Source: Haliea sp.
Lineage (GTDB): Bacteria; Pseudomonadota; Gammaproteobacteria; Pseudomonadales; Halieaceae
Length of the DNA stretch: 64,000 bases
Direction: 5' to 3'
Assembly: GCA_002692965.1 (NCBI GenBank)
Contig: NZNC01000029.1
Span: forward strand, 124,001-188,000
Part shown: positions 49,390 to 62,303 of the stretch, piece by piece
Numbering within the stretch: the first letter of the stretch is position 1
Layout of the letters: each line of letters opens with the position of its first letter
Notes under the pieces: generated by a model
What the model saw: only the letters and a program-made list of their open reading frames with translations
Databases searched by the model: none
Told to the model about the DNA's origin: nothing
Program-made: the position numbers and the translations under genes

Positions 49390-49502
49390 GCACACTCCGC
49401 GAATCGGTGAAAAACGGCGATTATAGCGGAGTCGGGCAGGCCCTGCAGAATCCTGCGGGGCCCTGCTACACTGGGCCCTTAGCCACCTCTCGCGGAGACC
49501 CT

Positions 49503-50906
49503 ATGGCCACCATCACCTTCTTCGGGGCTGCCCAGGAAGTCACCGGCTCCTGCCACCTGCTCGAGTCCCCTGCCTGCGGCAAAGTGTTGCTGGACTGCGG
49601 CCTCCACCAGGGTGGCGACGCCGTCGAGCGCATTCACAACGAGCGCTTCGCCTTCAACCCCGGCGATATCGATGCCGTGGTGCTCTCCCACGCCCACCTC
49701 GACCACAGCGGTATGCTGCCGCTACTGGTCCACCGCGGCTTCGAGGGGCCCATTTACTGCACCCGAGCCACCGCGGACCTGCTGCCGATCATGCTGCACG
49801 ACGCCGCCGGCCTCTACCTGCGCGACCTGGAGCGAGACAACCTGCGCGCCCGGCGCCGGGGGCGCAAGGAGCGCGAGCCGATCTATGACATGGACGATGT
49901 GGAAACGGTGCTCAAGCGCCTACAGCGCATTCCCTACCGCAAGCACGCGGACCTGGGACCGAAATGCCGGGTAACCTTCCACGATGCCGGGCATATTCTC
50001 GGCTCGGCCATCGTCGAGGTGGAACTGAAGGAGAAGCGCGGCCCGCGGCGCCTGGTCTTCTCAGGCGACCTGGGCCGTGCCGGCTCGGTGCTGATGAACG
50101 CCCCCAGCAGCCTCAGCGAGGCCGACATCGTGCTGATGGAAAGCACCTACGGTGACCGCAACCACCGCTGCGAGGACGAATCCCTGGAGGAGCTGCGCGA
50201 GGTGCTGGCGGACACCTGGCGCCGGGGCGGCTCGGTAATGATTCCCGCCTTCGCGGTGGGACGCACCCAGGAAATCATTTTCCACCTCGGGCGGCTCCAC
50301 CACGCCGGCGAACTGGACCCCTGGCAGATCTTCCTCGACAGTCCCATGGCGATTGAAGTCACCCAGGTCTACGATCGCTGGCTGCACCTGATGGATGACG
50401 ACGACATCCGCGAGCTGAGCGAGTCCCACCGCCACTCCCTGGAGGGTTTCCTGCCCACGCTGCAGCTGACGCCGGATACCGAGCAGTCGATGGCGATCAA
50501 CCGCATCAAGGGCGGCGCAATCATCATCGCCGGCAGCGGCATGTGTACCGGGGGCCGAATTCGCCACCACTTCAAGCAGCGCATCTGGGACAGCCGCAAC
50601 ACCATTATCTTCGCCGGCTTCCAGGCCCAGGGCACCCTGGGTCGCCTGCTGGTCGAGGGCATGCAGTCAGTCAAACTGTTTGGCGAGGAATATGCCGTGA
50701 AGGCGCAAATTGCCACCATTGGCTGCTTCTCCGCCCACGCCGGGCAACGCGAACTGCTGGCCTGGGCCGGCAATTTCGAGGGCCCGCCCCGCGTTGTACT
50801 GGTGCACGGCGAGGCCAAGGCGCAGGACACCCTGGCGGAGAAGCTTTGGGAGGAACAGGGCATACAGGTGCAGATTCCCGCGCGGGGGGAGACCATCGCC
50901 TTCTGA
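49503..50906 (+). CDS. MBL-fold beta-CASP ribonuclease (RMMBL type)
   Basis: The 467-residue protein has an N-terminal metallo-beta-lactamase core with HAHLDH (63-68), GHILGSAIVEVE and FSGDLGR, a beta-CASP domain in the middle (SVMIPAFAVGRTQEIIFHL) and the C-terminal RMMBL segment with FSAHAGQRELLAW. The group includes RNA exo/endonucleases related to CPSF-73 and RNase J-like enzymes such as TTHA0252. Substrate RNA is unknown. I set the start at the ATG at 49503, just after GCGGAGA. It is divergent from lipA, and stem-loop repeats follow its stop. Confidence 0.93.
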   Translation: MATITFFGAAQEVTGSCHLLESPACGKVLLDCGLHQGGDAVERIHNERFAFNPGDIDAVVLSHAHLDHSGMLPLLVHRGFEGPIYCTRATADLLPIMLHDAAGLYLRDLERDNLRARRRGRKEREPIYDMDDVETVLKRLQRIPYRKHADLGPKCRVTFHDAGHILGSAIVEVELKEKRGPRRLVFSGDLGRAGSVLMNAPSSLSEADIVLMESTYGDRNHRCEDESLEELREVLADTWRRGGSVMIPAFAVGRTQEIIFHLGRLHHAGELDPWQIFLDSPMAIEVTQVYDRWLHLMDDDDIRELSESHRHSLEGFLPTLQLTPDTEQSMAINRIKGGAIIIAGSGMCTGGRIRHHFKQRIWDSRNTIIFAGFQAQGTLGRLLVEGMQSVKLFGEEYAVKAQIATIGCFSAHAGQRELLAWAGNFEGPPRVVLVHGEAKAQDTLAEKLWEEQGIQVQIPARGETIAF

Positions 50907-51330: not shown

Positions 51331-52317
51331 CTACTGGGTGAAGGGTTCGGCGTAGAACTGGCTGTACCACTTGCGGAACTTGGCGATCGGCCCATCGCCG
51401 TCGCAGAGCGCGGGGTCCGGGCGGTAGATCTTGTTCTCCCAGATCGGCCGGTCCTCGTCCAGCTGCTTGCAGATATCCTTGACGATCGCCGCGTTGACGC
51501 CGCCCTCTTTCACCTGACCGTCCACCTTGGGCTGGGTAAAGGCGAAGCGCACGTGAACGGTTTCCTCGTCAACCGGGGTGACGTTGCCCATCAGGAAGGT
51601 GTCGGCGATCCCGGCAAACTTGGTGTAACCCTGACCGGGGCCGATGCTTCGGGCGGTGATGCTGCCCTTGATGGTACCGCGGGGGGTTTCCATGTCGGCG
51701 CGCTGGACCATGTTGGAGAAGTGATCTTCGTAACGGAGATCCGTTTCCGGGAAGGTGGCGGTCTGGTGTACATAGCGGAAGTGGGCCGAGTCGGCGCCGT
51801 TTTCAGCCATCTCCTGACAGGCGGTCTTGAAGGTCCACTCGAAGCGCTTCAGGGGTGCCCAGTCTTCGCTGTTGGCCTCCGGGAAGCTCTCCACCTCCCA
51901 CTTGGGCGCCTCGCCCTTGGGGTGATACCAGGCATAGATCACCTGATTGTCCTCCACCAGCGGGTAGGAAGTCAGGCACTGCTTGCCATCCACCTTGGGG
52001 GGCATCTTCTTCGCGTAGGGGACTTCCGTGCAGTAACCCTCGGGGTCGAATTTCCAGGCGTGGAAGGGGCAGACGATGGTTTCCCCCTCGATGCGCCCGC
52101 CCTGACCACTGCTTTCGTTGATGCCGTAGCCCAGGTGCGCCCCGAGGTGGGGACAATAGGCGTCCAGCAACACAGGCCGCCCGGATTCGGTACGGAACAA
52201 TACCAGTTCCTTGCCGAAGTACTGCACCGCCCGGGAGTCGCCCGGTTTGAGTTCATCCGCGTAGGAAATCACGAACCAGCCGAAGGGTATCGGCATCGGA
52301 GGACGGGGTTTGGCCAT
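51331..52317 (-). CDS. Rieske-type oxygenase, KshA (3-ketosteroid 9alpha-hydroxylase)-like
   Basis: The product has 328 residues. The Rieske [2Fe-2S] ligands are Cys55-x-His57 (CPHLGAHLG) and Cys83-x-x-His86 (CPFHAW). The mononuclear iron site is ENGADSAHFRYVH with Asp176, His179 and His184. The layout and the YAKKMPP segment resemble KshA, the oxygenase of 3-ketosteroid 9alpha-hydroxylase, and more distantly the DAF-36/Neverland sterol desaturases. No reductase gene lies nearby, so electrons must come from elsewhere. The ATG at 52317 is preceded by AAGGAGAGTG. It begins the steroid-like island. The exact steroid position attacked is not deducible. Confidence 0.86.
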   Translation of the reverse strand: MAKPRPPMPIPFGWFVISYADELKPGDSRAVQYFGKELVLFRTESGRPVLLDAYCPHLGAHLGYGINESSGQGGRIEGETIVCPFHAWKFDPEGYCTEVPYAKKMPPKVDGKQCLTSYPLVEDNQVIYAWYHPKGEAPKWEVESFPEANSEDWAPLKRFEWTFKTACQEMAENGADSAHFRYVHQTATFPETDLRYEDHFSNMVQRADMETPRGTIKGSITARSIGPGQGYTKFAGIADTFLMGNVTPVDEETVHVRFAFTQPKVDGQVKEGGVNAAIVKDICKQLDEDRPIWENKIYRPDPALCDGDGPIAKFRKWYSQFYAEPFTQ

Positions 52318-52480
52318 GGTCACTCTCCTTGAAGCGAGGTGCGAGTCGCACAGAACAGTAAAGCGCCGCACTGCGGCCCGCGTGGTTGATGGCGGCATGA
52401 TAATGTTTTTCCCCACGCGCCTTAAGGGCATTGGTACAAGCACTTGCACCGATCCCCGGAAGCGGGCCCGCGGTATCCAA

Positions 52481-54706
52481 TCAGAAGCGGTAGACACCCG
52501 TGAGACCGAACTGCCGCGGCTTGATCACGCGGTCCTGGGGAATCACCCCCGAGGGGACCGAGGCGTCGAGCAGGGTTTCCAGCTCGTTCTGCATCAGCAG
52601 GGCCTCCCTGTCGAAGGCATTCTTCACCCACAACTTGAGATCCCACTGGCCATCCGCGCTGCGCAGCCCAGTGAACAGGTCGAGGGTGGCAAAACTGCCG
52701 CTCTCGACCCGGGTGATGGGCGCCACCCGCATGCTGTGGAAATTGTAAAGCGTATCGAGATACCACTCCGCGCCCCAGCCTGTCACGGGCACGACATAGC
52801 TGGAGCTGGCAACCACTGACCAGTTGCCGGTATCCCCACCCAGGCGCTCGCCGCTCAGGTCGCAGACCCAGAACCCGCTGGAGCCTACGTAAGCCAGCTC
52901 GCCGCTGGTATCGGCACAGATGGCATCGTCGAAATCCTCGTACTTGCTGTCGGTATAGGACAGCAGGAGCTGCCCGCGGAGGCGGTCGCTGAAGAGGTAG
53001 GTGAGATCCACCTCCGCGCCGCTCACCAGCACCTCATCAGCATTCTGGATGACATCGAACTGGTTGTCCTGAAGACCATCCCCGTCGGTATCCAGGGGGG
53101 CTCCCAGCGTCTGTGTATGGAAGTCCGTGTAGGTCTGGTAGAAAGCTGCCAGGTTGAGACGCATGCGCTGGTCGAGCAGGTCCGATTTGTAGCCCAGTTC
53201 GATACTGGTGGAGCTTTCGTGATCGAAATTCTCGATCGCGTCCGGCGTGGTGCCGGAAAGGTCCAGTGTAGTGCCACCGTCCCGGCCCCCGCGATCCACG
53301 GTCAGATACAGCATCTGGTCAATCGACAGCTTGTAGGACAGCTTCACCGTGCCGGTCAGATCGATGTACTTGATCTCGGCATAATTGGGTGGATAGGGAA
53401 TATCCAGATCCAGAACATTGCCGCCAAGATTCGCGGTGCCCACAACCCGCAGGGCGTTCAGGTTCTTGCGCACGACACGACTCCAGCGCGCACCCGCGGT
53501 AAGGGTCCAGTCATCGCTCAGGTAAAAATTGTTGTGGGTAAAGACGCCCCAGTTCTCCGAGGAGGCATCCAGTACCACGTTGGCGGTGGTATCCACCGCG
53601 CCACCCAGGCGAAGCTGGCGCGACCTGACCGTGGTACTCGAGTTATTGTGGCCGTAGTAGAGGCCGGTTATCCAGTCCCAGCGGTCATTGCCGCTGGAGG
53701 CCAGGCGCAGCTCCTGGCTGAAGACCTTGGAGAAGTTGATCTCGGCGGTCTGCCAGCTGTCATCCACCCCGGTCACGTCGGTGTCCTTGTCATCATCGTT
53801 GGTGGAGGTGGCGTGATAGGTCTGGGAGGTGAGCACAGTGTTACCGATCTCGATATTCAACTCGCCAATGGTCTGGTTCATGCGCGCCCGAATATGCCGT
53901 GGACGATCACTCAGGTCGACCCTGTCGACAGCCTCCACCCCTTGCCCGTCAGAAATCCACTCGGAGTTGTTGCTGTCCCACTCGACATAACTGTGGCTGA
54001 GCCGCCCACTGACCGCGCTGCCCGGCTCCCACAGGACCGTGGCCCTCAGGGATTCGGTCCTGGCGAGCTGGTCCCGGTCGAGGTTGCCGTACTCATAGCC
54101 GCTGCTGTTGTTTTCATCGTAGACCCCGGCCAGGCGCAGCCCCAACTGGTTCTCTATCACCGGAATACTGAGGCCGAAACGGGTGTTGGACAGCTGGTGC
54201 TCGCCGAAGGACTGCTGAATATAGCCCTCCCTGCGGGTCAGGTCGGGGTTGCGGGTATGAATGACAATGGAACCCGTGGGCGAGGCCGTGCCATACAGGG
54301 TGCCCTGGGGGCCGCGCAGCACTTCGTAGCGTTCGATGTCAAACTGGGTAAAGAATGCCAGCTGCTGCTGACTCACATAGGCCCCATCCATGAACACGTT
54401 GGTTCGAGGCGTCATGGGGCCCTGGATATAGGTTCCCACCCCGCGCAGCGTAATGTTCTGTGTCGAGCCGAAGGATTGCAGGTTCAAGCCCGGAGCCAGC
54501 TTACCGAGATCCTGCAGATCGAAGGACACCTTGTCTTCAAAGGCACTGCCCGTGATGGCATTGATGCTGACAGGAACGTCCTGCAGCAGCTCGGTGGTCT
54601 TCTGGGCAGTTACCGTGATCTCCTCCAGCACCAGGGTATTCTGGGCCTGAACCACGCCACACCCGCTCAGGGCAATGACAGCGACATAGCATCGGGTGCG
54701 TTTCAC
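52481..54706 (-). CDS. TonB-dependent receptor
   Basis: This 741-residue outer-membrane transporter has a signal peptide (ending VVQAQN), a TonB-box-like LEEITVTAQK at about residues 27-36, a plug (VPVSINAITGSAFEDK ... GTYIQGPMTPRTNVFMDGAY ... VLRGPQGTLYG) and a barrel ending in Phe (GVYRF). The plug's LRGPQGTLYG and DGAYVSQQ blocks are typical of the large sterol/terpenoid/other receptor group of Sphingomonas-like and marine gammaproteobacteria. It probably imports the hydrophobic substrate processed by the surrounding oxidoreductases. The gene is divergent from the PPOX gene across a 310-base region with an AT-rich palindrome. Confidence 0.92.
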   Translation of the reverse strand: MKRTRCYVAVIALSGCGVVQAQNTLVLEEITVTAQKTTELLQDVPVSINAITGSAFEDKVSFDLQDLGKLAPGLNLQSFGSTQNITLRGVGTYIQGPMTPRTNVFMDGAYVSQQQLAFFTQFDIERYEVLRGPQGTLYGTASPTGSIVIHTRNPDLTRREGYIQQSFGEHQLSNTRFGLSIPVIENQLGLRLAGVYDENNSSGYEYGNLDRDQLARTESLRATVLWEPGSAVSGRLSHSYVEWDSNNSEWISDGQGVEAVDRVDLSDRPRHIRARMNQTIGELNIEIGNTVLTSQTYHATSTNDDDKDTDVTGVDDSWQTAEINFSKVFSQELRLASSGNDRWDWITGLYYGHNNSSTTVRSRQLRLGGAVDTTANVVLDASSENWGVFTHNNFYLSDDWTLTAGARWSRVVRKNLNALRVVGTANLGGNVLDLDIPYPPNYAEIKYIDLTGTVKLSYKLSIDQMLYLTVDRGGRDGGTTLDLSGTTPDAIENFDHESSTSIELGYKSDLLDQRMRLNLAAFYQTYTDFHTQTLGAPLDTDGDGLQDNQFDVIQNADEVLVSGAEVDLTYLFSDRLRGQLLLSYTDSKYEDFDDAICADTSGELAYVGSSGFWVCDLSGERLGGDTGNWSVVASSSYVVPVTGWGAEWYLDTLYNFHSMRVAPITRVESGSFATLDLFTGLRSADGQWDLKLWVKNAFDREALLMQNELETLLDASVPSGVIPQDRVIKPRQFGLTGVYRF

Positions 54707-55016: not shown

Positions 55017-55472
55017 ATGCCGGTCAACAAATCCGTTCCGGACAGTCACAAGCACATACTGGAGAACGGCGTATTTGCATTCATGAGTACCATACGCGCC
55101 AGTGACCAGCTGATTTCCACCAACCCGGTCGGCTATGACTGGGATGGCGAGACGCTGCGTATCAGCACCCTCAAGAGCCGCGTGAAATACCGCAACCTGC
55201 AACAGGATCCCCGCGTCACGGTCTGCGTACTGGATGCCCGCTCACCCACCCGCTATGTGGAAATTCGCGGCAGAGCGGTGCTGGAGGACGACCCCGGTGG
55301 CGCCCTGAACAAAAAGATGTTCCGGGAGAAGATGGGCTACGAGTTCGACCTCGACGAGCCTGGGGCGGAGCGGGTTATCGTCACCATCGTACCCGAGCAG
55401 GTCTCCACCCCGACCCTTTACGGGGGCCGTCTGGACCATGTCGGCGATCCAGCCGGGGGAGAGAAGCCGTGA
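55017..55472 (+). CDS. PPOX-class pyridoxamine 5'-phosphate oxidase-like / F420-dependent protein
   Basis: This 151-residue split-barrel flavin- or F420-binding protein has the blocks FAFMSTIRASDQLISTNPVG, then LKSRVKYRNLQQDPRVTVCV and PTRYVEIRGRAV, typical of the TIGR03618 PPOX group. Such proteins reduce enones or other hydrophobic substrates with a deazaflavin or flavin. F420 is uncommon in gammaproteobacteria, so FMN is also possible. The ATG follows AAGAGG. Its stop overlaps the next start by four bases, coupling it to the NTF2-fold gene. Confidence 0.85.
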   Translation: MPVNKSVPDSHKHILENGVFAFMSTIRASDQLISTNPVGYDWDGETLRISTLKSRVKYRNLQQDPRVTVCVLDARSPTRYVEIRGRAVLEDDPGGALNKKMFREKMGYEFDLDEPGAERVIVTIVPEQVSTPTLYGGRLDHVGDPAGGEKP

Positions 55473-55843
55473 ATGAAGAGCTGATGCGGCGCTACTACGC
55501 AACCTACAACCGCGAGGACCCGGAGGCTCTCGCCGCCTTCTACCACCCCGAATGCCAACTGCACTCGGCACAGGGGTCGATGCAGGGGCGCAAAGAAATC
55601 CTGGACACCTACCGCTATCTGATCACAGCGTTTGAGGACCGCATGACACCACTGGACATCCGCGTGCAGGGCGATACTGCAGAGGTTGACATCCTCGACC
55701 GCTTCACCGCGCGCGAGGATGTCGCAGATTTCATGGGCCAGTCCCTGGTCGCCGGCGAGAGTTTCGAGTTGAAACTGAAGGCGCACTACCGGGCTGAAAG
55801 GGGACGGTTTCGCGAGATTCATATCGCACTGAGCCCGGACTGA
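55469..55843 (+). CDS. NTF2-fold protein (SnoaL / ketosteroid-isomerase-like)
   Basis: This 124-residue alpha+beta-barrel protein of the NTF2 superfamily has the typical opening MRRYYATYNREDPEALAAFY, then HPECQLHSAQGSMQGRKEIL. Members include ketosteroid isomerase (KSI), SnoaL cyclases and limonene-epoxide hydrolases. The KSI catalytic Tyr/Asp pair cannot be assigned with certainty, so only the fold is claimed. In this steroid-like neighbourhood a delta5-3-ketosteroid isomerase-type role is attractive. It is coupled to the PPOX gene by a four-base overlap. Confidence 0.8.
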   Translation: MNEELMRRYYATYNREDPEALAAFYHPECQLHSAQGSMQGRKEILDTYRYLITAFEDRMTPLDIRVQGDTAEVDILDRFTAREDVADFMGQSLVAGESFELKLKAHYRAERGRFREIHIALSPD

Positions 55844-55926: not shown

Positions 55927-56802
55927 CTACGAGTAAATCGGCCCGCCAATCAGGTGTGTGGCCAGATCGATCAGCAACAGGCTGATGACACCGACAAAGG
56001 AGGCTTCGATAAACACTCTGCCGAGCCCCCAGCGCTCACCGTCGACCTCCTCGTCCATGCGGTAGACATTGGGGAAGGCGACCACAAAATACAGCGCATA
56101 GAACCAGGACCCGTAAAGCAGCATGGCGTCGAGGTCCTCGTACCACACGTTACTGCCGTCATTGTCGATCATCACGAAGTACATGTAGGTCTCGCCCCAG
56201 GCCCAGAAGCAAGCCACCACCAGCACGATCGCGGACCAGGCCACGGCCCGCGCCGCGGCGGAGCTCCAGTGCGTGGTCATGGTGCGGATACGCCGCATCA
56301 CGATAACCGCGCTAGCGTGGTAGACGATGAAGAACACGATGGCGTTGAAGTACATGGACGGCGGTACCTTCATGTGCTGCGCCAGCGCCGTCGACTCATC
56401 CGGGCCGACCAGAGCAGAATCCAGGTACAGGTTCACGTCTTCAAAGCGGTAGCGCAGGCCGAGGATTTCAAAGAAGTACTCGGTATGGAAATAGGTAGCC
56501 AGAAAAATCCACCAGAACATGTAGAGGTTGAACTTGAACCAGTAGCTCTGCTGCCAGGGTACGCCGCTGTTGCGCCGGAGAAACCAGGGAAGCAGCACGC
56601 AGTACGGCAGCCACATGAGCAGGTTCTGCATGATATTCCAGAAGGTCCCGGTCTCCAGCCAGCCCATCTGCACCATGGCCATGTTGTAGAGAAACCAGAA
56701 GGGTATGACGGTGAGAAAAAACTTTTCCGCCCAGGCCTTGTCAGGGTTTGGCGAGAACCAGTAGCCCCCCTTCCCGCGCTCATTCATCGCTGCCTCGTGC
56801 AT
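55927..56802 (-). CDS. polytopic membrane protein resembling cycloeucalenol cycloisomerase
   Basis: The product has 291 residues and about six to seven TM helices. Several blocks match plant cycloeucalenol cycloisomerase (CPI1) as I remember it: YWFSPNPDKAWAEKFFL (14-30), YWFKFNLYMF (87-96), YFHTEYFFEILGLRYRF (104-120), YHASAVIVMRRIR (161-173), the acidic AWGET (201-205) and FYALYFVVAFPNVYRMDEE (234-252) followed by WGLGRVFIEA (258-267). CPI opens the 9beta,19-cyclopropane ring of cycloeucalenol in plant sterol synthesis. The flanking KshA-, KstD-, OYE- and 3beta-HSD-like genes make sterol chemistry plausible. The match needs a database comparison; another sterol-membrane enzyme is the alternative. 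Confidence 0.7.
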   Translation of the reverse strand: MHEAAMNERGKGGYWFSPNPDKAWAEKFFLTVIPFWFLYNMAMVQMGWLETGTFWNIMQNLLMWLPYCVLLPWFLRRNSGVPWQQSYWFKFNLYMFWWIFLATYFHTEYFFEILGLRYRFEDVNLYLDSALVGPDESTALAQHMKVPPSMYFNAIVFFIVYHASAVIVMRRIRTMTTHWSSAAARAVAWSAIVLVVACFWAWGETYMYFVMIDNDGSNVWYEDLDAMLLYGSWFYALYFVVAFPNVYRMDEEVDGERWGLGRVFIEASFVGVISLLLIDLATHLIGGPIYS

Positions 56803-56840: not shown

Positions 56841-58916
56841 TCAAAGTGCCGGCTCGCGCTTCCTGACCCGGCCAATAGCGCAGGCGACTTCGGTGGCTTC
56901 ATCGATGGCCTGTCGAATCAGTCCCGGACCGTTACAGTCCCCGATGTGCCAGACCCTCTCCGCGAGGCCCGCAAACGGCGAGCTTGCGGCCTCCAGGCCC
57001 TGCGGCTGCCCGGCCAAAACCACGGTATCGGCGTCCAGCGAGCGCTCTCTGCCCGCAAAGCGCAGGGTCAGCCCGCCCGGATAAAGCGCGACCAGTTCAG
57101 TCTCGGCCAGCACCTGCCCACCCAAGCGATCGAAGCGTGACAGCTGCTCCTGCCGCCGTTTCGGGCCAACGTCGAGGGCGGGTACGGCGGCGCTGCAGAG
57201 CAGCGTCACCGAACGCCCCCGCCGCAGCAGGAACTCGGCAAACTCGAGGGCCACCAGATCCTCACCCACGACACACACGCGACGCCCCAGGGGCAGATAG
57301 TAGCGACTCAGTCGGCGCAGATGAGCCGGCTTCAGGCTACCCCACAGGACGGCGGGAACTTGCGTCGCGAGCCGCATCCAGGTCGGGCCCTGACCACCCC
57401 TGACCGGATTCAGGCCGGACAATACCTGGCGCATCGCCCAGGCATCCACCACGTGGGGCAAATCCCGACCGGGCACTGCCGGCAGCCTGGGTGTCGCCCC
57501 AGTCGCCACCACCAGGACATCCGGTGCCAGGGCCTGAACCGCGCTGGCATCGGCCCGCGTGTTCAGGCGCAAGTCCACGCCCAGGCGCTGCAGCTCACGC
57601 GACAGGAAGTGCAAAAGGGGTTCGTTGTCACTGTGTACCAGTGCGGCATAGAACAGGGATCCGCCGACCCGCGGCGATTGTTCCAGCAGGGTCACCGAGT
57701 GGCCATTGCCGGCACACTGGCGAGCCAGCTCCATCCCCGCGGTACCCGCACCCACCACCAGGACCCGGAGCGGGCGATCCACGCTGCCGGGCACCCGTGT
57801 ACCCTCGCGCCCGCTGAAACCATTGACCGCGCAATGCATGTTGGCATCAAAGGGGGCCACCAGCATGGAGTCGATACAGTTCTGACAGGACAGGCACTCG
57901 CGCACCTCGCGCCGGCGACCCGTGCGAAGCTTATTTGGCAGCTCCGGGTCCGCCAACAGGGGTCGTGCCCACATCACGATATCTGCCTGGCCACGAGACA
58001 CCACAGCGCAGGCCGTTTCCGGTCGGTGCAGCCGTCCCACTACCATCACCGGGATATCCACCAGCTGCTTTATCGACGCGGCGACCGCCACGTTGTGCCC
58101 GTCAGGCGTGTCCGAACCACAGACGATCTGGCCGACCAGGCGATCGTGGGAAACGCCGCCACTGATCTGCAGGCAGTCCACCCCCGCCGCTACAAGCTGC
58201 GGCGCCAGCCGCTGGGTTTCCGTCAGGTCGCGGCCGTCAAAGCTGCCCTCGTAGCCGGAGATACGCAGCGTCAGGGGGAAGTCCCTGCCCGTTGCCTGCT
58301 TGATCCGCTGGATGGTTTCCAGCAACAACCGGCTGCGGGTCTCCAGGCTGGCACCGCCATATTCGTCTTCGCGCCGGTTGCGCTGCGCCGACAGGAAAGA
58401 GCCCAGCAACATGTAGGCGTGCGCCGCATGCAACTCGATACCGTCGTAGCCGGCCTCCCTGGCGCGCACGGCGGCTGCCGCGTACTGGTCCATGATGCCC
58501 TCGAGTTCGCCCCGCTCGAGGGCGCGACAAGGCCAGCCGGTTCCGGCGGCGACGCAGACCGAAGGGCCCAGGGGGTCGGTCATGGACTCCGGCCCGGGAT
58601 GGGAAATCTGCGGCTGTATGCAGGCCCCCTGGGCGTGCACGCGCCGCACCAGCTCGCGGTGACCCGCGATAAAGCGGTCATCCCCCAGGCTCAGGGCCTG
58701 TGGCTGATAGCGCTGGGCGACATCCACCGAGCACATCTCCACGGTCAGCAGCCCGGCGCCGCCGCGGGCGCGGGCCTCGTGAAACGCGATCAGGCGATCG
58801 CTCACTTCGAAGTCCGCCGTGCCGTAATTGGTGGTCATGGCCGACATGGCAATGCGGTTGCGCAGGCGCATGCCAGCGATATTGACCGGTTGAAAGAGTG
58901 CACCGAAATCCTGCAT
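56841..58916 (-). CDS. NADH:flavin oxidoreductase / 2,4-dienoyl-CoA reductase-like (OYE family with Fe-S cluster)
   Basis: The product has 691 residues: an N-terminal old-yellow-enzyme TIM barrel (1-335, with HAAHAYMLGSFLSAQRNRR), a [4Fe-4S] site with Cys341, Cys344, Cys347 and Cys362 (CLSCQNC ... HC), and a C-terminal FAD/NAD(P)H domain (from about 375, VLVVGAGTAGMELARQCAGN). This is the FadH layout. In FadH it reduces dienoyl-CoA; related enzymes reduce enones, including 3-keto-4-ene steroids and bile-acid intermediates. The gene lies between the CPI-like and KstD-like genes, all leftward, with short gaps, so they are probably one operon. Confidence 0.9.
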   Translation of the reverse strand: MQDFGALFQPVNIAGMRLRNRIAMSAMTTNYGTADFEVSDRLIAFHEARARGGAGLLTVEMCSVDVAQRYQPQALSLGDDRFIAGHRELVRRVHAQGACIQPQISHPGPESMTDPLGPSVCVAAGTGWPCRALERGELEGIMDQYAAAAVRAREAGYDGIELHAAHAYMLLGSFLSAQRNRREDEYGGASLETRSRLLLETIQRIKQATGRDFPLTLRISGYEGSFDGRDLTETQRLAPQLVAAGVDCLQISGGVSHDRLVGQIVCGSDTPDGHNVAVAASIKQLVDIPVMVVGRLHRPETACAVVSRGQADIVMWARPLLADPELPNKLRTGRRREVRECLSCQNCIDSMLVAPFDANMHCAVNGFSGREGTRVPGSVDRPLRVLVVGAGTAGMELARQCAGNGHSVTLLEQSPRVGGSLFYAALVHSDNEPLLHFLSRELQRLGVDLRLNTRADASAVQALAPDVLVVATGATPRLPAVPGRDLPHVVDAWAMRQVLSGLNPVRGGQGPTWMRLATQVPAVLWGSLKPAHLRRLSRYYLPLGRRVCVVGEDLVALEFAEFLLRRGRSVTLLCSAAVPALDVGPKRRQEQLSRFDRLGGQVLAETELVALYPGGLTLRFAGRERSLDADTVVLAGQPQGLEAASSPFAGLAERVWHIGDCNGPGLIRQAIDEATEVACAIGRVRKREPAL

Positions 58917-58939: not shown

Positions 58940-60403
58940 TCAGGCGGAACGCGCCAGGGCCGCGAGGCGCAGGCCTGCCTGGCGACCGAAAAAAGTGGCG
59001 TCCGCCACCGACATGCCACTGGCGTAGCCCTCACCGGTGCGGGGGATACCGGCGGCGGTCCGGCCGGCGGCAAACAACCCCGGGATGACCTCGCGGTCGG
59101 GACTCAGGACCTCTCCACCGGGTAGCGTGTCGAGCCCGCCGAGGGTAAAGCAGGTGGGCCGCAACTGCGCCAGACTGTAGTCAACCAGCGCATAGGGGGG
59201 TGACTCCAGGGGAGCCAGCCAGGTATCCGCCTTGTGAAACAGCGGGTCGTGTCCGGCGCGGGCATGGCGGTTGTAGGTGGCAACGGTTTGCTGCAGGGAG
59301 CCTTCGGGCAGTCCCGCTTCGGCCTCCACTTCTGCCACGGTTTCGCCGACTGCGACAATCACCGTGGTGTCGTGGTAGTCGGGCCGGGCGAAGTAGCGAT
59401 TGTCGATAAACATCCACGCCCGCATGTCGGTCTGTCGGGATACCGCGGCACCCAGTCGGGCCAGGTAGACATCCTCGTTGACAAAGCGCTGCCCCTGGGC
59501 GTTGACGAAGATACCGTAAGTCAGCTGCGCGGGCGGATAATGCGCCACGCCGACGAAGGCCTGGCCCATGTGAATGGCGTTGCCGCCGGCGGCCACCCCC
59601 AGCAGAATGCCATCCCCGCGGTCACCCGGGTTGCCGTGGCGGGTGCAGACGGCAGCCAGGTCCGGGATGTGCTGCCGGGTCAGTCTCTCGTTCATGATGA
59701 AGCCCCCCAGGCAGAGGATGACCCCGTGTCGCGCTTCGAGACAGTGCAGCCGGTTGTCGGCCTTGACCTGAACCCCACACACGCGACCGCTGTCGTCCTG
59801 GATCAGGGCCGTCACACGATGGTCGCAGCGGACCTCCACGCCGGCTTCCTCTACCCGCTGCAGCAGTGTGTCCATCAGCACCTTGCCGCCGTCGTGCCCC
59901 GCGTCTGCTGGCAGGTGCCCCCGGGGCACCGGTGTTGCCAGATCGCGAAAGGGCCAGGCGCGCTCGTTGCCTGTGTATTGCAGGGAGTCACCGGTCAGTG
60001 CAACCACATCGCGCCCGGTAAACAGGCTGCGCCGGTAGGGCACGCCCTGGGACTCCATCCAGTCAAAGTGTGCCGCCGCACCCGCGACAAACGCATCCAC
60101 GCGCGCCGGGTCGGCAAACTCGCCAAAACAGGCCATCAGGTAGCGGCGAAAATTTTCCGGGCTGTCTTCAATGCCCAGGTCCCGCTGCAGAGAAGTGCCA
60201 CCGGAGCCGCCCAGATACATTTCGCAGGCGGACAAGCGCGTCGAACCGCCACCGGCACTGGCCCCCTCCAGTGCCATGACATCCAGGCCTGCAGCACGCA
60301 TCTCGAGTGCAGCGCAAGCACCCGCACCGCCAAGGCCGCAGACAATGGCATCGGTGCTGGCGTCAAAGGCAGCGACATCGCCGCGGCGGATGATCCTGGA
60401 CAT
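58940..60403 (-). CDS. FAD-dependent oxidoreductase, 3-ketosteroid dehydrogenase / fumarate reductase flavoprotein family (KstD-like)
   Basis: The product has 487 residues. The dinucleotide motif AIVCGLGGAGACAALEM (about 19-35) opens the FAD domain, the C-terminal IPRTGEGYASGMSVADATFF is the family's FAD-closing block and a substrate-covering domain lies between. It has the size and pattern of 3-ketosteroid delta1- or delta4-dehydrogenases (KstD family) and is distinct from succinate dehydrogenase. Catalytic Tyr residues cannot be assigned without an alignment. It is the first gene of the leftward run KstD-like, OYE-like, CPI-like and is divergent from the 3beta-HSD-like SDR gene. Confidence 0.85.
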   Translation of the reverse strand: MSRIIRRGDVAAFDASTDAIVCGLGGAGACAALEMRAAGLDVMALEGASAGGGSTRLSACEMYLGGSGGTSLQRDLGIEDSPENFRRYLMACFGEFADPARVDAFVAGAAAHFDWMESQGVPYRRSLFTGRDVVALTGDSLQYTGNERAWPFRDLATPVPRGHLPADAGHDGGKVLMDTLLQRVEEAGVEVRCDHRVTALIQDDSGRVCGVQVKADNRLHCLEARHGVILCLGGFIMNERLTRQHIPDLAAVCTRHGNPGDRGDGILLGVAAGGNAIHMGQAFVGVAHYPPAQLTYGIFVNAQGQRFVNEDVYLARLGAAVSRQTDMRAWMFIDNRYFARPDYHDTTVIVAVGETVAEVEAEAGLPEGSLQQTVATYNRHARAGHDPLFHKADTWLAPLESPPYALVDYSLAQLRPTCFTLGGLDTLPGGEVLSPDREVIPGLFAAGRTAAGIPRTGEGYASGMSVADATFFGRQAGLRLAALARSA

Positions 60404-60500: not shown

Positions 60501-61505
60501 ATGAAGGTACTGGTAACCGGCGGCACAGGTCTGGTGGGTGCATTCACGATTGCCCGTCTGTTGCAATCCGGTCATGACGTCAGAGCCCTGGTGCGCGACC
60601 GGACAAAACTCGCCCCCTGTCTGGCGCCACTGGGCAGCAGTGCCGCAGCGGTAGAACAAGTGACGGGGGATGTCACGGCCGCGGATAGCGTCGCGGGGGC
60701 CGTCGAAGGCTGCGAAGCGCTCATCCACTGCGCCGGCGTCTTTTCCGACCGATTACAGGACGAAGCCCTGCTGCAACAGGTCAATGTGGAGGGCACCCGC
60801 ACCGTGCTGGCACAGGCCGTGACCGCGCAGCTGGATCCGATCATTCACGTCTCCAGTTACATCGCCCTGTTCCCGCCGGCGGGCCAGGTCCAGGAAGCGG
60901 ACGACCCGGTCACCGAGCCGCGCTCCATGTACGCCCGCACCAAGGCCGCGGCCGAACGTATCGCCCGCGACCACCAGGCGCGAGGGGCGCCGGTGGTGAC
61001 GGTCTACCCGGGCTCCATCCAGGGTCCCCACGACCCGACCTTCAGTATCGGCTCACAGATTATCGCCCGCACCCTGCGCGACCGGCGCATGCTGGTAAGC
61101 GACAGCGGCAGAAGCTACGTCGACGTGCGCGACGTCGCCGACCTGTTGAACAACCTGCTGGAAACGGGCCGCGGCCCGCGGCGCCTCATGTGCGGTGGCC
61201 ACTACCTGCTGGATGAGGAAGTGCGGCAACTACTCTCCCGCGTCAGCGGCGAGGAGATCCGCGCACTGCGCATCCCCGGCTGGCTCCTGCGCGGCATGGG
61301 CCGCGGCGCTGACCTGATCGCCGGGCTTCGCGGGCGCCCCTTCACCCTGACCGCGGAAGCCGCGGAAGTGCTGACCCGCAGCGTGCCCTGCAATGACGCC
61401 CCGGGCCTGAAAGACCCTGGCTATCGCCGCCTCAGTGCCGAGCAGTCCTTCCGGGACCTGGTGACGTGGATTCGGCAGAGCGGCAAAATCGACAGCCTGC
61501 CGTGA
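60501..61505 (+). CDS. NAD-dependent epimerase/dehydratase-family SDR, 3beta-hydroxysteroid dehydrogenase-like
   Basis: This 334-residue extended SDR has the nucleotide motif TGGTGLVGAFTIARL (residues 6-20) and the catalytic YARTK with an upstream HVSSYIALF Ser. The fold and the LIHCAGVFSD and TVYPGSIQGPHDPT blocks match the 3beta-HSD/NSDHL-like and dihydroflavonol-reductase-like groups. In this setting oxidation of a 3beta-hydroxysteroid to the 3-ketone is the most likely job, which would feed the KstD- and KshA-like enzymes. The start at 60501 has CAGGGGCGCGAGC before it. It is convergent with the tetR gene. Confidence 0.85.
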   Translation: MKVLVTGGTGLVGAFTIARLLQSGHDVRALVRDRTKLAPCLAPLGSSAAAVEQVTGDVTAADSVAGAVEGCEALIHCAGVFSDRLQDEALLQQVNVEGTRTVLAQAVTAQLDPIIHVSSYIALFPPAGQVQEADDPVTEPRSMYARTKAAAERIARDHQARGAPVVTVYPGSIQGPHDPTFSIGSQIIARTLRDRRMLVSDSGRSYVDVRDVADLLNNLLETGRGPRRLMCGGHYLLDEEVRQLLSRVSGEEIRALRIPGWLLRGMGRGADLIAGLRGRPFTLTAEAAEVLTRSVPCNDAPGLKDPGYRRLSAEQSFRDLVTWIRQSGKIDSLP

Positions 61506-61510
61506 GCGGG

Positions 61511-62137
61511 CTAATCCGCCTCGTACAACAGCTCCATCACCATGTTCTTGAGGTGGCGGATGTAGACCTTGGGGTTGAAGCTGCGCGGTTCCAGGGCAAT
61601 CTCGATCAGTATCCCGGTGAGCATGCAGTGAACCAGGTAAATGGCTTCACCCAGCACTTTGTCGCTGGCCTGGCTGTCGTGGAATATCTTGCGCCCCAGC
61701 TGGAGGTGGGACTCCCGGCTGCGACTGATTGACAGGTCATTGGCCGCCTTGCCGTGGCCGCGGGTGGCCAGAAGGATCTCCAGGGTCGCCATGTACTCTT
61801 CCCCCTGGTAGTGCTGCCAGGCAGCATCGACATACTTGCCAACCCGGCGCGAGGCGGTGCCCACCGTGAAGCGGGGAGCACTCAGGGTCTCGTGAAACTT
61901 GACGTGGGAGCGCGCCAGAATTTCTTCGAGGATTTCTTCCTTGCCGCCAAAATGATGCTGGACCGCGCCCCAGGTCACACCCGCCCGCTTGGCAATCTGG
62001 GTGGAGCTGGCGGCCGCGAAACCCTTTTCCTTGATCAGGCCGATCACCGCGTTGATGATCTTTTCCTGGGTTGCCCGGCTTTTGGCCGCCTGCCGCCCCA
62101 GGGCTTCCACGTCCGCCGGATTCAGTTCCTGGGACAT
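61511..62137 (-). CDS. TetR family transcriptional regulator
   Basis: The product has 208 residues. The N-terminal helix-turn-helix lies at about residues 24-70 (GFAAASSTQIAKRAGVTWGA, then VQHHFGGKEEILEEIL), followed by an all-helical ligand domain. I set the start at the ATG at 62137 because AAGGGGAGAG precedes it and the extra 25 upstream residues look non-coding. It is the only regulator in the steroid-like island and is presumably its repressor, sensing a hydrophobic ligand. It lies between the SDR gene and the third TonB receptor gene. Confidence 0.92.
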   Translation of the reverse strand: MSQELNPADVEALGRQAAKSRATQEKIINAVIGLIKEKGFAAASSTQIAKRAGVTWGAVQHHFGGKEEILEEILARSHVKFHETLSAPRFTVGTASRRVGKYVDAAWQHYQGEEYMATLEILLATRGHGKAANDLSISRSRESHLQLGRKIFHDSQASDKVLGEAIYLVHCMLTGILIEIALEPRSFNPKVYIRHLKNMVMELLYEAD

Positions 62138-62303
62138 GCCGCTCTCCCCTTCGGTTGAAAACCCGCGCAGTTTATCACCTGCTTCAGAGCTGAGACAGCA
62201 ATGCGCCCGCAATGTGTTTATCCCGGCTGGCTACCGCCACACCGGAGCGCATCACCCCGGCGATGCGGGCTTCAGCTGTGCCGCCAATCGACAGCGCACC
62301 TGA

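Follow-up and report, generated by a model that had tools for sequence, protein, structure and literature searches.

The open reading frame at 55927-56802 (minus strand, 291 aa) is a real, conserved gene of a Halieaceae bacterium, and its product is a polytopic membrane protein that appears to be a relative of plant cycloeucalenol cycloisomerase (CPI; cyclopropyl sterol isomerase, CPI1), the enzyme that opens the three-membered ring of plant and algal sterols. The gene is located among sterol-degrading genes and near a sterol 14-demethylase (CYP51) gene, which suggests that bacteria use it to prepare such sterols for breakdown rather than to synthesize sterols. As no activity, metabolite or expression data exist and the plant sequence used for comparison was not confirmed against a database record, this interpretation remains an inference, although we consider it more likely than not.

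The CPI-like protein and its distribution

The window, which is the whole 64,000-nucleotide stretch analysed here, corresponds to positions 124001-188000 of contig C31 in the genome designated G000. The minus-strand frame at 55927-56802 translates without an internal stop and contains FYALYFVVAFPNVYRMDEE followed by WGLGRV, as the initial annotation had it. Its third-position GC is 0.84, within the range of its neighbours, and 27 aligned sequences, including that of the window, show 57% mean column identity with 39 invariant columns; the long plus-strand frame over it is its antisense shadow. An AlphaFold model built from this alignment (pLDDT 86.8, pTM 0.87) has seven helices of 15 or more residues, with hydropathy peaks over six of them.

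The initial annotation had proposed a match to plant CPI1, and this proposal was supported within the limits of an unconfirmed plant sequence. The bacterial profile matched the plant sequence over its length with 171.3 bits, at about 30% identity, and a score of this level was reached in 0 of 2000 shuffles. In addition, 29 of the 39 bacterial invariant residues are the same in the plant sequence. However, the invariant E108 aligns with a His, and the bacterial proteins carry a conserved segment of about 20 residues (with invariant D128 and G133) that the plant sequence lacks. A scan of viral contigs with the plant sequence found no relative and a literature search for its peptides found no paper, so the comparison rests on an unconfirmed reference. 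No unrelated family matched better: no Pfam family reached its cut-off (best DUF5657, 15.3 bits against 25), no NCBIfam family was listed at E<=0.1 and no PDB sequence at E<=10, although the two family libraries may not include a CPI model, and a plasmid collection gave no match. Fold searches were likewise not significant (PDB, best E 0.81; VIA-align, best Z 4.1 over 574 chains; viral library, best E 0.56), but a missing match shows neither a new fold nor a different one.

The gene is rare and patchy. Among 97 related genomes, 10 carry it; nine of these have full-length frames, while one (G045) has only a truncated copy covering residues 1-133, in a genome with three CYP51 copies and two strong hits to the sterol 8,14-reductase Bsr. 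A pattern scan of genome contigs gave 28 loci in Halieaceae, Spongiibacteraceae, Litorivivens, Solimonas, Nevskia, Hydrocarboniphaga, other gammaproteobacterial MAGs, Deltaproteobacteria/Myxococcota MAGs and Sphingomonas formosensis, and the closest named relatives of the gene are in Sediminihaliea, Haliea and Parahaliea. One MAG titled Klebsiella pneumoniae (locus L017, CAMAXE010000001.1) carries the island and looks the same as genome G068 of the window's order, so its title looks wrong. In even surveys the gene was found in 1 of 370 genomes in the class and 2 of 397 in the phylum, with G000 being one of them in both, and in 8 of 79 genomes in the order of genome G466. A distant CPI-like protein, in one 309-aa frame, is 25.6% identical over residues 16-291 and belongs to genome G921 (L088, C341). 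In a tree, the loci L008, L009, L076 and L081 fall outside the main bacterial group and L007 is its first branch, and these five are here called divergent; the plant row sits on a very long branch and the root is a drawing choice, so its place is unsure.

Gene neighbourhood and the association with CYP51

Within the window, the order on the minus strand is a 3-ketosteroid delta-4-(5-alpha)-dehydrogenase-like flavoprotein gene (58940-60403), an OYE-type flavin reductase gene (56841-58916) and the CPI-like gene, with gaps of 23 and 38 bp. The first of these had been labelled KstD-like in the initial annotation, but its product matches the delta-4-(5-alpha)-dehydrogenase 4AT0 (310.9 bits) far better than the 3-ketosteroid dehydrogenase 4C3X (98.9 bits), and the label was corrected accordingly. 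The other neighbours that had been named were confirmed. The OYE-type protein, of the FadH/BaiCD/mycofactocin-OYE superfamily, matches PF00724 (197.9 bits), TIGR03997 (383 bits, below its cut-off of 793) and, in the PDB, NCR and 2,4-dienoyl-CoA reductase. TonB-dependent receptors are encoded at 52481-54706 (minus strand; PF00593 and PF07715) and from 62304 to past the window end (minus strand; PF00593; whole gene 307-2526 of L053, the stretch past the window end), and a KshA-type Rieske oxygenase gene (51331-52497, minus strand) overlaps the end of the first receptor gene, with PF19298 at 123.2 bits and KshA 4QDF as the best PDB match (126.7 bits). An extended SDR of the 3Beta_HSD/Epimerase families (HpnA/SdmB-like) is located at 60501-61505 (plus strand). 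The surroundings further include a TetR-family regulator (61511-62212, minus strand; PF00440, 45.4 bits), an NTF2/SnoaL-like protein of 124 aa (55469-55843, plus strand; PF12680, 49.2 bits), with homologues within 10 kb of the CPI-like gene in L012, L014, L016, L017, L020 and L038, and a pyridoxamine 5'-phosphate oxidase-like protein (55017-55472, plus strand; PF01243, 44.1 bits). Elsewhere in the window, a beta-CASP metallo-hydrolase (49407-50906) scores 379.7 bits to the type VII CRISPR Cas14 model and 322 to aCPSF1, both below their cut-offs.

Past the window end, the island continues with LLM oxidoreductases, a P450, a KstD-like protein (L053:6917-8602; 585 bits to NF009478, cut-off 789), a PQQ dehydrogenase, and a run of two SDRs, an Rv0768-type aldehyde dehydrogenase (686 bits, cut-off 775) and a 3-hydroxyisobutyrate-dehydrogenase-like protein (L053:10777-14697), followed by an FA_hydroxylase protein, with the His boxes HRFWFH, HAVHH and HHVHH, and a CMD protein. 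Among 41 other loci, of which 39 are distinct (L087 repeats L017 and L078 repeats L030), homologues of the SDR lie directly downstream of the CPI-like gene in 13 distinct ones, relatives of the Rieske protein within 10 kb in 15 and CYP51 (300 bits or more) in 11, although many of these loci are short. A histidine kinase with an ethylene-receptor-like N-terminal domain (ETR1_N, 124.9 bits) lies next to the CPI-like gene in L019 (8637-9851), with a homologue in L020 (near 8611).

The P450 past the window end (L053:3703-5049; G000:C31:189703-191049), 8.9 kb from the CPI-like gene, is CYP51. It matches 7JJ1 (Cytochrome P450 51) with 369.5 bits, M. tuberculosis CYP51 with 332.7 and an obtusifoliol 14-alpha-demethylase with 265.7, and it shows YQFMVPIFGQGVQY, GHHTS and FGGGQRKCVG, consistent with the signature motifs expected of CYP51. 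Among the 97 relatives, CYP51 at E<=1e-40 is present in 20 genomes, that is, in 10 of 10 carriers against 10 of 87 non-carriers (Fisher 1.5e-8), and among the 57 KshA-positive genomes the split is 10 of 10 against 10 of 47 (p 4.3e-6). With the truncated copy of G045 dropped, the first comparison becomes 9 of 9 against 10 of 87 and the two p-values become 7e-8 and 1.2e-5; as these genomes are related, the p-values overstate independence. Ten of 11 copies in these genomes have a CYP51 on the same contig within 25 kb (9 of 10 without G045), with gaps of 8.9 kb (G000), 2.4 (G015), 24 (G037), 23 (G045, truncated copy), 2.4 (G050), 5.3 (G068), 1.3 and 0.9 (G077, two copies), 2.0 (G087) and 1.1 (G088), while in G025 the two genes lie on different contigs. 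The association is not universal, however. In 23 further carrier records, one of which (G922) gives CYP51 at coordinates identical to those of G037 and is taken as the same genome, CYP51 is present in 16; the seven without it are Nevskia, three Solimonas, Hydrocarboniphaga, one soil Deltaproteobacterium and Sphingomonas. The loci of the Solimonas-type group instead hold a CMD protein and, in three, another P450 downstream. In the deltaproteobacterial and Spongiibacteraceae loci L018, L019, L020, L023, L024, L037 and L077, no CYP51 lies within the 10 kb or so examined on each side, although their genomes have one. Many carrier records are MAGs of unknown completeness, and absences there are thus weak.

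In five divergent loci (L076, L080, L081, L082 and L083), the CPI-like gene lies together with CYP51 and an NTF2-like protein of about 200 aa, with an SDR among them in L076, L080 and L083. L080 and L081 are two separate CYP51-CPI clusters of one genome (G077), and their CPI-like proteins are 49% and 38% identical to that of the window. The CYP51 of L082, the one scanned, ends in a ferredoxin domain by Pfam, and those of L076 and L081 have C-terminal extensions that look alike in sequence. The 200-aa protein has SnoaL_2 hits in four of five, over cut-off in one. A bacterial 8,14-sterol reductase (8,14-Bsr) of the NTF2 superfamily has been described that works on the CYP51 product, often lies next to CYP51 and has the pocket residues Y37, Y43, Y78, Y80, D133 and D136 (PMC13277303). 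L081 has Y37, Y43, Y78, D133 and D136 at these numbers and Y80 in the alignment, and all six are invariant in five sequences. Bsr-strength hits (174 bits or more) were found in 11 of 97 relatives, but only 4 of the 10 carriers are among them, and the window's genome has only a 68.2-bit hit.

Catabolic and alternative roles

Taken together, the most likely explanation is that the protein is a bacterial member of the CPI family used in catabolism. In the inferred reaction, a membrane-embedded acid protonates the 9-beta,19-cyclopropane of an imported plant or algal 9,19-cyclosterol, and loss of the C-8 proton gives a delta-8 sterol, which is the substrate type of the CYP51 encoded nearby. CYP51 would then remove the 14-alpha methyl, and in the divergent branch 8,14-Bsr would reduce the diene. 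The plant steps are numbered SMO1, CPI, CYP51 and C-14 reductase in a review stating that CPI forms obtusifoliol (PMC12667688), and M. tuberculosis CYP51 demethylates obtusifoliol (PMC6469627). The C-4 methyls could be removed by the Rieske protein or by the FA_hydroxylase protein, homologues of which lie near the CPI-like gene in L017, L038, L076, L082 and L085, together with the aldehyde dehydrogenase and SDRs; this step is likewise inferred. The delta-4-(5-alpha)-dehydrogenase, a KstD-like protein and KshA would feed the nucleus into the 9,10-seco pathway. In support of a catabolic setting, KshA_C was found in 57 of 97 relatives, in 10 of 10 carriers against 47 of 87 non-carriers, with means of 7.2 copies in carriers and 2.1 in others and nine copies in G000 (best 223.5 bits). 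Among ten proteins scanned around one KshA copy (L056), three got names at E<=1e-60, all housekeeping and none of them hsa. Plant enzymes are stated to act poorly on 4,4-dimethyl cyclosterols (PMC12667688), so cycloartenol itself may not be the substrate.

An alternative hypothesis, which we consider less likely but cannot exclude, is that the protein shares the family but is a sterol double-bond isomerase (for example delta-8, delta-8(14), delta-7 or a 3-keto delta-5 to delta-4 shift) acting in the degradation of lanosterol-type or ordinary sterols without ever meeting a cyclopropane ring. E108 in place of the aligned plant His, the extra conserved segment and the seven further carrier records without CYP51 are in its favour, as are the CPI1 orthologues reported in Capsaspora, sponges and a choanoflagellate, in a paper noting that CPI1 was usually expected in cycloartenol-route species (PMC4967820). 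On the other hand, 29 of 39 invariant residues are shared with the unconfirmed plant sequence, an NTF2-like protein that could be a ketosteroid isomerase is encoded next door at 55469-55843, and ten CYP51-positive relatives lack the gene, so 14-demethylation alone does not need it. Six genomes (G005, G030, G043, G056, G063 and G091) have CYP51 and a strong Bsr but no CPI-like gene and no cyclase found, and are candidate lanosterol-type degraders.

It is much less likely that the island degrades another polycyclic terpenoid with both the CPI-like protein and CYP51 repurposed for it: although the island also holds LLM-type oxidoreductases and a PQQ dehydrogenase, and some loci a TauD dioxygenase, the CYP51 linkage, the 8,14-Bsr residues, the delta-4-(5-alpha)-dehydrogenase-like gene and the nine KshA_C copies all point to sterol nuclei.

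The weakest alternative, sterol synthesis from cycloartenol, is very unlikely, even though CYP51, SDR, FA-hydroxylase and Bsr homologues are also sterol-synthesis genes (PMC13277303) and Stigmatella makes cycloartenol (PMC4919349), because no SQHop_cyclase_C domain (PF13243) was found in G000 and none over cut-off in 30 of 34 carrier records (at most 33 genomes). Of the four cyclases over cut-off (3 of 26 carriers in one search and 1 of 8 in another), three, including that of G921, show what is probably the hopene-cyclase motif and one (L062, G476) shows neither motif; weak hits below cut-off were in G471 and G476, and the non-carrier G006 also has a weak hit counted over cut-off. Squalene-epoxidase hits (PF08491) were over cut-off in 29 of 37 genomes (19 of 26 carriers and 10 of 11 non-carriers), but they were weak (33.3 bits at best), mostly partial and also obtained in the controls E. 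coli and Caulobacter, and thus were not used as evidence for synthesis.

Relation to known systems

Cyclopropyl sterols are intermediates of plant and many algal sterols, and our literature searches, in which most of the listed papers were judged by title or the start of the abstract, showed no bacterial CPI or bacterial enzyme that opens the 9,19-ring. It is about as likely as not that bacteria carry a module in which a CPI-family cyclopropane opener, CYP51 and, in some, 8,14-Bsr turn imported cycloartenol-type sterols into nuclei that the 9,10-seco pathway can use as food. As far as these searches show, this would be the first bacterial enzyme assigned to opening 9,19-cyclosterols, and it would give bacteria that make no sterols a reason to keep CYP51. 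The relevance of M. tuberculosis CYP51 to its physiology has been called unclear, because the full sterol synthesis pathway is lacking (PMC6469627), and a catabolic role for CYP51 in environmental bacteria offers a testable precedent.

Compared to the unconfirmed plant CPI1 reference, the protein is of similar length and aligns over its length, but it occurs in a bacterial host without a detected sterol cyclase and in a catabolic neighbourhood, with the extra segment and E108 for the aligned His. The CYP51 and 8,14-Bsr pair of Methylococcus and Mycobacterium (PMC13277303) is resembled by the neighbouring CYP51 and, in the five divergent loci, by the NTF2-like protein with the published pocket residues; here, however, the pair is joined to a CPI-like gene in genomes mostly without a detected cyclase, and the window's own genome lacks a strong Bsr. 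The same paper reports Bsr activity in a sterol-degrading Mycobacterium and cites the conversion of lanosterol by a Mycobacterium to a C19 steroid, and its reference list includes, by title, a report on microbial transformation of cycloartenol. A Rieske oxygenase and an extended SDR of the same superfamilies as the bacterial C-4 sterol demethylase SdmAB are present, but their scores of 48-58 bits (SdmA; 57.7 for the window protein) and 70-116 bits (SdmB; 107 for the window protein) are far below the curated cut-offs of 600. Finally, Halieaceae and Spongiibacteraceae isolates from sponges degrade steroids (PMC5790920), and the island shares with proteobacterial 9,10-seco steroid degradation the KshA-type, delta-4-(5-alpha)-dehydrogenase-like and KstD-like genes and the TonB receptors, while adding putative nucleus-preparing genes (CPI-like, CYP51 and FA-hydroxylase) beside the ring-degrading ones.
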